Source: Halostagnicola sp. A-GB9-2
GTDB taxonomy: Archaea > Halobacteriota > Halobacteria > Halobacteriales > Natrialbaceae
Direction: 5' to 3'
Length of the DNA stretch: 64,000 nucleotides
Assembly: GCF_030068615.1 (NCBI RefSeq)
Contig: NZ_JASJOC010000003.1
Coordinates: 124,001 to 188,000 of the forward strand
Position numbers and translations under genes: made by a program. A model generated the notes under the pieces. It was not told the DNA's origin, made no database searches, and was given only the letters and a program-made list of their open reading frames with translations. Below, in pieces: positions 23,337 through 26,337 of this stretch (positions are counted from its first letter, which is position 1; the number at the start of each line of letters is the position of its first letter).

Positions 23337-24377
23337 CTACAGCGTGTCCGTTCCGGTACCGTCCGCTGATCCGGTCAACGAAAAGCCCGTCACGGCGTCT
23401 TCGGGATCTTTGAGGAACGTGTGGCGTCCGGTAATGTGTGCAGAGCCTCTGATTTCGGGGGTCGTAACCGTAATCCCGTCCCGTTTCTCGGCCTCGAGCA
23501 ACCGCCCCGTAAACCGCGTTCCGATGACGCTTTCGTACGCGTACGGTTCCTCGACCGCGAGGGCTCCTTCCCGATGGAGGAGCGTCATCTTCGCGCAGGT
23601 ACCCGTCCCGCAGGGGGACCGGTCGACCTGTCCGTCGCCGAAGACGACAACGTTCCGATCCGCATCGCCGTCTCCGCCGCGTTCGTAGAACTCGACGAGC
23701 GAGACAGGTTGGCGCTCGCCCGTAAACGGATGGACGACGTCGAGTCGGTCGTTGATCGCTCGCCGGATCTCGAGGCCGTCCTCGACGAACGCCTCGACGC
23801 GTTCGGGTTCGATCGCTCGTTCAAGGGCCGCGGCGTCGACGAGCGCGAAGACGTTTCCGGCGAAGACGATGTCGACGGGCACGGATCGGGCCGACTCGCC
23901 GGTCTCGAGCGACACCGTAAGCGCGTCGTAGACGAACGATTCGACGTTTCTGATTGCGACCGATTCGACTCGGCCCGTCTCGTCGACGGCGGGGTGGGTC
24001 CGTACGAGTCCGGCCGGCGTTTCCACGGTGATCGTTTCCCGGGCCTCGAGCTGGCCAGTCTCTAAAAGCGCCGTGACGGCACCGATCGTTCCGTGACCGC
24101 ACATCTCGAGGTAGCCGCCGGTGTCCATGAAGAACAGTCCGAGGTCGGCTTCCTCGGCGGTCGGTTCGACGGGGACCGCCCCGAACATGTCGTCGTGGCC
24201 GCGCGGCTCACAGAGGACGAGTTCTCGGAGCCAATCCTGACCGTCGGCGAACTCCCGACATTTGTCCGCGACGGTTCCGCCGTGGAGCTGTGATCGATTC
24301 GCTCCGCTCGTGATGATTCGCGTCGGCTCTCCAGCTGTGTGCGTGTCAAGCGTTTCGATAAGCGTCTCAGTGTGCAT
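23337..24377 (-). CDS. proline racemase-family protein (racemase or 4-hydroxyproline epimerase)
   Basis: A 346-residue protein with both catalytic cysteines of the racemase/epimerase branch: Cys93 in EMCGHGTIG and Cys256 in RSPCGTGT. Dehydratases of this family have Ser or Thr at the first position, so racemisation or epimerisation is favoured. DTHTAGEPTRI at the start and GSAHITGRHTFL near the end are also typical. It is cytoplasmic. The gene follows the NSS transporter and its small subunit on the same strand, 67 bases on, suggesting the transporter imports its substrate. Confidence 0.9.
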   Translation of the reverse strand: MHTETLIETLDTHTAGEPTRIITSGANRSQLHGGTVADKCREFADGQDWLRELVLCEPRGHDDMFGAVPVEPTAEEADLGLFFMDTGGYLEMCGHGTIGAVTALLETGQLEARETITVETPAGLVRTHPAVDETGRVESVAIRNVESFVYDALTVSLETGESARSVPVDIVFAGNVFALVDAAALERAIEPERVEAFVEDGLEIRRAINDRLDVVHPFTGERQPVSLVEFYERGGDGDADRNVVVFGDGQVDRSPCGTGTCAKMTLLHREGALAVEEPYAYESVIGTRFTGRLLEAEKRDGITVTTPEIRGSAHITGRHTFLKDPEDAVTGFSLTGSADGTGTDTL

Positions 24378-24444
24378 TGTATTGCGTTTGTAATCGTGAT
24401 TCGGTCGGCCTGCAAAGCCCGTCTCCAGCTTCTCGCTCGAGGGG

Positions 24445-24762
24445 TTAGAGCCGCTCGAGCGACTCGATCTCCCGGTCGCTCCAGTCGTAGAAGTGTTGAT
24501 CTGTCGTCTCAAGGGTGTCGACGCACTCGTTGTACTGCGCTCTGGCCTCCGCCGCCAGCGGGTCGTTCGGATTCCGTTCAATCCACTCGCGCAGTTCCGC
24601 GAGCGCTTTCGGCGAGTAGGTGTCAAGTCGGTCCTGTTGCTCAAGCATCTCGACCTTGCGACTCTCCTGGCGGAGCGTTCGGGTGAGCGCCCAGATAGCG
24701 ACTCCCCAGAACGCAAGCAGGGTGAACGCGAGCATGCCGAGGACGCCGGGAGTGAGCGGCAT
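24445..24762 (-). CDS. MetS-like small subunit of an NSS transporter
   Basis: A 105-residue protein with one N-terminal membrane helix (about residues 8-28, LGMLAFTLLAFWGVAIWAL) and a soluble charged tail with LRTLRQESRK-like basic face and later acidic helices. Its ATG shares one base with the stop codon of the NSS transporter gene (TAATG). The known MetP/MetS pairs have the same order, with a much shorter MetS of about 60 residues; the extra tail here is unusual. It probably stabilises or modulates the transporter. Confidence 0.78.
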   Translation of the reverse strand: MPLTPGVLGMLAFTLLAFWGVAIWALTRTLRQESRKVEMLEQQDRLDTYSPKALAELREWIERNPNDPLAAEARAQYNECVDTLETTDQHFYDWSDREIESLERL

Positions 24763-26222
24763 TAGTCGTCACCTCCGGTGACCTCGGCGGTATCAGTTTC
24801 GGTCGCCGTGCGATCGACTACTGACATGATCCCGTAGCCGATGATCGGGAACAGGATGATGACCAGCATGCCGCCGATCATCTCCGGGGTTCCGAACTCG
24901 TCGACCGCGAAGTAGCCCATAATGAAGATCATGACGATCGGGATCACGTACTTGATGACGGGATCCCACCACTTGCCGACGTAGATACCGGCGTTCTTGT
25001 TTACCGCGAGGACGCGCAGCCGCTCCGGCCCCATCACCCAGCCGATGACGAGGATGATCGCGAGCGTCGCCAGCGGCAGTCCCCAGCTCCCGAAGATGAA
25101 GTCCGCAAAGTCGAGGAAGTCGGCCGAGAACGCACTCGGTAGCCCGACGAGCCAGATGAGCCCGCAGATACCGAGTACGGTTTGGGTCCGGTCGAACCGC
25201 GTTTCCTCAGCGACCGTCGTGACGCTGACCTCGGTGATCAACAGCCCCGAGGTGAACGTCGCGATGAAAAAGCCGACGAAAAACAAGATTGCGAGGATCC
25301 CGCCCAGCGGAATCTCGGGGAACACCTGCACGAGCGAGACGAACGCGAGTCCCGCGCCCGCGTCGGGTTCGACGCCGACCGCGAAGACGACCGGGAAGAT
25401 CGCGAGCGCCGCCAGGATCCCGATGCTCGATTCGCCGATCGCCGTGAAGACGCCGCCTCCGAGCGGAACGTCGTCGTACTCGCGGAGATAGCTCCCGACC
25501 GTCAGGGCGATACCCCACCCCAGGCCCGTCGAGAACAGCGCCTGGCCGAGGGCCTCGATCCAGGTGCTACTGTAGGTGAGATACGCCCAGTCGATGCCGA
25601 AGGTGAACGCGATCCCCTCGCTCGCGCCGTCCAAGGTCAGCCCGTAACCCGTCATGATGACCAGCGAGACCACGAGTGCGGGGACCGCGTAGACGACGAT
25701 TCGCTCGACGCCCCTTCGGATCCCGAGGATGAGGATCCCGGCGACGCTCGCCATCACGAGCGTGTGGAGCCCGATCATGAGCCCCGAATTCGCGAAGAAG
25801 GCCTCCATAAACGGTTCGGCCTCGAACCCGCTCGAGGTGAACGTAAACAGCAGCGAATGTGCCGCGTAGTACAGCGTCCATCCGATCAGCGGCGAGTAAT
25901 AGGACATTAGCGCGATGTTCACCAGGAGGACGACGACACCCAGCCCGACCATCCCGCCGGGCCCGAGAACGTCGCGAAACGCGCCGATAACGCCCTTGTT
26001 CGTGTACCGTCCCAGCGCAACTTCGGCCATGAGCCCGGGTACCGCCAGCAGGAACAGCAGTACCAGAAACGCCAGGACGAACGCTCCGCCGCCGTTGTCG
26101 CCCATCACGTACGGAAACCGCCAGACGTTGCCGGCACCGACCATCGCCCCGACCATCGCCATCAAGAACCCGAACCGAGTCCCCCATTCCTCTCGAGCAG
26201 TTTTTGCCTCACTTTCTGCCAT
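24762..26222 (-). CDS. neurotransmitter:sodium symporter-family amino acid transporter
   Basis: A 486-residue protein with about twelve membrane segments. The N-terminal GFLMAMVGAMVGAGNVWRFPYVMG is the LeuT-type unwound helix 1, and the GxGNxWRFP core binds sodium and substrate. It should take up an amino acid with sodium. I chose the ATG at 26222 over a GTG three codons before. It leads the unit transporter, MetS-like subunit, proline racemase. Proline or hydroxyproline as the substrate is inferred only from that last gene. Confidence 0.9.
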   Translation of the reverse strand: MAESEAKTAREEWGTRFGFLMAMVGAMVGAGNVWRFPYVMGDNGGGAFVLAFLVLLFLLAVPGLMAEVALGRYTNKGVIGAFRDVLGPGGMVGLGVVVLLVNIALMSYYSPLIGWTLYYAAHSLLFTFTSSGFEAEPFMEAFFANSGLMIGLHTLVMASVAGILILGIRRGVERIVVYAVPALVVSLVIMTGYGLTLDGASEGIAFTFGIDWAYLTYSSTWIEALGQALFSTGLGWGIALTVGSYLREYDDVPLGGGVFTAIGESSIGILAALAIFPVVFAVGVEPDAGAGLAFVSLVQVFPEIPLGGILAILFFVGFFIATFTSGLLITEVSVTTVAEETRFDRTQTVLGICGLIWLVGLPSAFSADFLDFADFIFGSWGLPLATLAIILVIGWVMGPERLRVLAVNKNAGIYVGKWWDPVIKYVIPIVMIFIMGYFAVDEFGTPEMIGGMLVIILFPIIGYGIMSVVDRTATETDTAEVTGGDD

Positions 26223-26337
26223 GTTTGTCACTGGCTAGCATAACACTCACAAACGGGTTATACGTGGTGTTCCCATGGTCGGGTCACGCCGAGTTCACTC
26301 GCCGGTATGGCGCGCTGTCTGTTACTATCTGCAGCTG

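Follow-up and report, generated by a model that had tools for sequence, protein, structure and literature searches.

A recurrent haloarchaeal gene trio of an NSS transporter, a small protein and a proline racemase family enzyme, with a probable role in proline utilisation

Layout of the locus and residues of the enzyme

The window, that is, the whole 64,000-nucleotide stretch of Halostagnicola sp. A-GB9-2 that was analysed, carries three genes for a neurotransmitter:sodium symporter-type (NSS) transporter, a small protein and a proline racemase family enzyme (Table 1). The ORF coordinates agreed with the initial annotation, which had placed the three genes on one strand with a one-base overlap and a 67-base gap; the NSS/small gene junction, GACTAATGCCG, has one base common to both ORFs. 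A GTG at 26231 provides an alternative start for the NSS gene. The trio is flanked by ORFs that we take, from their translations, to be MutL/MutS-like and CheR-like, and no proline gene was found near it within the window.

Table 1 Features of the trio in the window and of the loci compared with it
Feature	Location	Strand	Remarks
NSS (SLC6/SNF) transporter, 486 aa	24762..26222	-	ATG at 26222, stop ends 24762; PF00209 match
Small protein, putative transporter subunit, 105 aa	24445..24762	-	ATG at 24762, stop ends 24445
Proline racemase family enzyme, 346 aa	23337..24377	-	ATG at 24377, stop ends 23337; PF05544 match
Gap between small gene and racemase, 67 bases	24378..24444	-	-4 to +102 bases in 27 other trio loci
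DAO, DHDPS-family and racemase-family gene cluster	L146 5802-8978; L148 7974-11227		
35-aa single-helix ORF, Clostridia	L086 1551-1658; L089 1437-1544		Between NSS and racemase

The transporter matched PF00209 (SNF) at 190.3 bits against a gathering cut-off of 27 (E 7.6e-56, Pfam) with 4us3 as its closest solved structure (E 1e-61), and it is a putative Na+-coupled amino-acid importer. Close relatives were represented by 42 matches in 40 of the 243 genomes of the order (E<=1e-120). The same genome contains a second, solitary NSS gene, 34.5% identical to the first (L167 6939-8354; G000:C1, contig 1, about 48.9-50.4 kb), and no small-protein match was found beside it within its 16-kb stretch.

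The enzyme matched PF05544 (Pro_racemase) at 302.9 bits against a gathering cut-off of 27 (E 3.3e-90, Pfam). At E<=0.001, no other protein of its genome (4.68 Mb, 38 contigs, 99.97% complete) matched this family. Its closest solved structure was the proline racemase 7pb3 (E 2.6e-83). Both catalytic cysteines noted in the initial annotation were found, as Cys93 (MCGHG) and Cys256 (DRSPCGTG). The enzyme stayed below the curated cut-offs of the proline racemase equivalog NF010576 (324.8 of 556 bits) and of the hydroxyproline epimerase equivalog NF010578 (242.4 of 376 bits). Watanabe et al. 2015 named the sites at which proline and hydroxyproline enzymes differ, a proline racemase having Phe at sites 1 and 5 and no His at site 4 (PMC4364671); an epimerase was recognised here by His at site 4 with Phe absent from sites 1 and 5. 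Read from an alignment with fragments of four chains of known structure, the specificity residues of the window enzyme were Phe65/Leu227/Phe246 (sites 1/4/5), the combination of a proline racemase and not that of a 4-hydroxyproline epimerase. The same Phe/Leu/Phe and Cys/Cys residues occur in 7pb3, and the window enzyme is predicted to have proline racemase activity. TlProR of Thermococcus litoralis (6j7c) is likewise an archaeal Cys-Cys enzyme with Phe at site 1 and Leu at site 4, but differs from the window enzyme by Trp at site 5, an identity of 38% and another gene cluster (PMC4364671).

Recurrence of the trio and its neighbouring genes

The same gene order was found at 27 other loci, or 24 once three copies of the same contigs were dropped; two of these 24 share one genome, and the window locus is counted apart. 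Conservation of the order in 24 other haloarchaeal loci indicated that the trio is not a chance arrangement, in support of the initial proposal that transport and racemisation form one functional unit. The small gene and the racemase overlap by 4 bases in 12 of the 27 loci, and at all 27 the enzyme has Phe, Ile or Leu, and Phe at sites 1, 4 and 5 together with Cys/Cys, proline-type like the window enzyme. Among 29 named loci retrieved with the racemase (25 archaeal and 4 bacterial), all three genes were recognised by similarity in 18; five of the named loci belong to Haloferax. In the plasmid collection, the racemase adjoins the small gene in 8 records. One locus (L130 7917-9161) holds a decayed trio with a small-gene remnant, no NSS match and a racemase that is still open. 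A search of one open-access library found no publication on the trio.

The genes around the trio point to proline breakdown. Near the 24 trio loci we found proline dehydrogenase (ProDH) at 13, an HTH_10 regulator at 20, aldehyde dehydrogenase (ALDH) at 9 and a DAO-type oxidoreductase at 4, versus 2, 0, 2 and 7, respectively, near 31 loci with NSS and small genes and no racemase; the flanks counted were 6 to 8 kb, some of them cut by contig ends. The families were read in representative loci as Pro_dh, HTH_10, Aldedh and DAO. None of these four genes occurred in the flanks of L062, L077, L092 and L100, which make up four of the 24 loci. One annotated plasmid carries ALDH, HTH, ProDH, a DMT transporter, NSS, small protein and racemase genes within about 8 kb; of the three annotated plasmid loci, the other two combine the trio with an HTH gene and show no ProDH within 7 kb. 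In the genome of the window, ProDH, HTH_10 and ALDH genes are clustered at about 304-308 kb (G000:C23), some 155 kb from the trio; the ProDH is 56.7% identical to that of L065, with 58.5% for HTH_10 and 83% for ALDH. No curated model reached its cut-off on the linked ALDH, and its linkage suggests that it acts on P5C as a P5C dehydrogenase.

A different haloarchaeal arrangement is represented by HjProR of Haloarcula japonica (PMC4364671) and its PutA-linked clusters, which share with the trio a Cys-Cys enzyme linked to proline dehydrogenase. At L150-L160, assumed to be of this HjProR/PutA type, the racemase adjoins ProDH in 11 of 11 loci. These enzymes differ by lying on a separate branch, by an identity of 48-49% to the window enzyme and by Ala at site 4; branched-chain-type ABC transporter genes lie alongside (families read from L084, which has the same clusters), and an NSS match is absent.

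Two racemases from annotated D-proline reductase (prd) operons, 43-44% identical to the window enzyme, were among the closest bacterial relatives seen. The prd-operon racemase feeds D-proline reductase, whereas the genes linked to the haloarchaeal trio are oxidative. Two Clostridia loci (L086 and L089) carry an NSS gene, a 35-aa helix ORF and a racemase in one direction, and the plan would thus extend beyond archaea, with these two loci as its support. Past one opposite-strand gene, both continue with a DAO-cluster gene and with genes similar to portions of sarcosine oxidase. The 35-aa ORFs, which gave no convincing match to Pfam, are perhaps MetS-like subunits.

The history of the trio was approached through trees of its parts. 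In an NSS tree of 52 rows, the trio label required 6 changes, at least 4 of them forced by starred branches. The racemase of L119 clusters with the window's type (support 88/98), whereas its NSS transporter clusters with those of L129 and L066 (100/96 and 94/89 in two trees). The alternative grouping of L119 was rejected in both cases (AU p 0.00338 for the racemase and 0.0233 for NSS), for groups that were picked after seeing the trees and with forks that are not all starred. The conflict between the two trees suggested at least one probable re-pairing of racemase and NSS gene, and plasmid carriage may explain the spread of the trio.

The small protein as a candidate transporter partner

Of the 243 genomes of the order, 40 carried the small protein, at 42 places in all, and at 41 of these places its gene is paired with a close NSS relative; the exceptions noted were a 291-residue NSS piece in one genome (G081) and a small-gene remnant without NSS match in another (G162). 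The racemase is the next gene at 11 of the 42 places, the decayed G162 place included, and is absent at 31. The near-constant pairing with NSS, together with the frequent absence of the racemase, argued that the small protein belongs to the transporter, and the 31 places without racemase led us to reject a racemase-specific role. In a sample of 294 genomes across the phylum, the small protein occurred in at least 7, all in the same order, with up to 16 candidates scored per genome, a depth at which distant or weak relatives may escape. Of 12 plasmid records with the small protein, 11 label its gene 'hypothetical protein' and one lists no gene at that position.

MetPS of Corynebacterium, a methionine/alanine importer, is an NSS transporter with a small subunit, MetS. 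The likeness of the haloarchaeal pair to MetPS lies in an NSS gene followed by a gene for a single-helix small protein whose helix matches in register: a profile comparison aligned the first third of the small protein, over 32 columns and at a probability of 86%, to a set that combined 17 MetS-type proteins from archaea with two clostridial ORFs; helix composition may inflate this probability. The trio protein is, however, MetS-like in the helix alone, with some 65 extra residues, and another substrate is to be expected. The initial description gave the subunit an excess of about 40 residues over MetS, in agreement with 105 aa set against the 60 positions of the PF16951 model. Pfam and NCBIfam scans of the small protein gave no model above cut-off, PF16951 and NF033493 included; PF16951 did not match its first 39 residues (Pfam), and NF033493 matched nowhere in the genome. 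When 8 N-terminal pieces of haloarchaeal proteins were tried, two gave PF16951 matches, both below cut-off (E 0.0006 and 0.018). The two features by which MetS-type proteins are defined here, a single helix and a gene directly after the NSS gene, are both present, but with no model at cut-off the small protein was not classed as MetS.

An alignment of 32 small proteins had 119 columns and twelve invariant residues. The predicted structure (mean pLDDT 76, pTM 0.47) has helices at 5-44, 51-63 and 70-86, of which the first begins with the MetS-like part and the other two form a helical hairpin. Basic residues past the long helix suggest that in this model the hairpin extension would be cytosolic, and it probably serves the transporter, since the NSS/small gene pair is mostly found without a racemase. 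Sub-threshold matches to TPR_14 (E 0.061) and BamD (E 0.0043) gave no more than a hint of a TPR-like hairpin. None of 9 matches to solved structures was convincing (best E 0.023). From these comparisons of sequence and gene order, the small protein appears to be an NSS transporter subunit that has so far been overlooked, which gives a small haloarchaeal 'hypothetical protein' a testable role.

Proline utilisation and competing explanations

We consider it probable that the trio is a proline-utilisation module for uptake, perhaps of D-proline as well, racemisation and oxidation. The NSS transporter and its small partner would import proline together with Na+, with D-proline a likely substrate or co-substrate given that the racemase gene follows the transporter genes. 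The racemase would interconvert D- and L-proline through a 1,1-proton transfer that uses both cysteines, and L-proline would be converted to glutamate by the proline dehydrogenase and aldehyde dehydrogenase of the distant cluster. Co-transcription of the trio, uptake, its substrate and the direction of flux are what we infer from this arrangement. The parts are familiar and their combination is new, and it would tie one clade of NSS transporters to proline breakdown. To our knowledge, there are few descriptions of archaea that use D-amino acids, and a D-proline importer of the SLC6 family would be new. A narrower version of the scheme appears rather unlikely: dedicated D-proline scavenging, in which the NSS transporter would take the D-enantiomer, the cytosolic hairpin of the small subunit would dock the racemase or another enzyme, and uptake would be coupled to stereo-inversion, some Clostridia following the same plan with a helix-only subunit.

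The initial annotation had proposed a hydroxyproline or D-proline route. Its D-proline part remains plausible, whereas the hydroxyproline part was weakened by the Phe/Leu/Phe pocket and by the ProDH, ALDH and HTH_10 genes linked to the trio in relatives, and hydroxyproline ranks below proline as the main substrate. Import of trans-4-hydroxy-L-proline by the NSS transporter, followed by epimerisation for breakdown, would draw on the same enzyme family, and in a preliminary assay a Haloarcula homologue converted hydroxyprolines as well as proline (PMC4364671). The genome also encodes DAO-type proteins (best identity 30%) and DHDPS-family proteins, the best of which is 44% identical to that of the hydroxyproline-like cluster. 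Such clusters are seen at L144, L146 and L148, where haloarchaeal enzymes have Tyr/His/Phe at sites 1/4/5. All three loci carry a DAO gene nearby, joined at L146 and L148 by a DHDPS-family gene, a context that likely represents a hydroxyproline pathway in haloarchaea. In the racemase tree, these His-bearing enzymes group with the trio enzymes of L068 and L070, nested in the trio-type clade, from which we take their difference from the trio to be recent. None of the three, however, has an NSS match beside it, and the window enzyme has proline-type pocket residues, so that we regard hydroxyproline import as improbable for the trio.

Equally improbable in our view is a broad importer, or one of other amino acids such as methionine/alanine, with the enzyme gene merely co-travelling on mobile replicons. 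The 31 of 42 small-gene places without racemase mean that the substrate of the transporter could be broader than proline, and the MetS-like partner and the plasmids that carry racemase and small gene together fit this reading as well. Against it, the order and tight spacing of the trio are kept across families, down to the recurrent 4-base overlaps, ProDH and HTH_10 are linked where the racemase is present, and the tree conflict suggests re-pairing. A biosynthetic or stress role of the enzyme, making D-proline, would accord with the reversible reaction of TlProR (PMC4364671), but the catabolic genes linked in relatives make it very improbable.

The proline-utilisation reading also helps to distinguish, within the racemase family of haloarchaea, members of the proline type from those of the hydroxyproline type. 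Family members that pass the cut-off are present in 43 of the 243 genomes of the order, so the enzyme lives outside the trio too. At 11 loci, the family members are Cys-Thr, as in trans-3-hydroxyproline dehydratases. One haloarchaeal member (L131 7971-9050) has Ser-Cys replacing Cys-Cys. At L080, L082, L087, L088 and L147, racemase-family genes lie beside hydantoinase-like genes, with a prolidase-like gene also present at L080.
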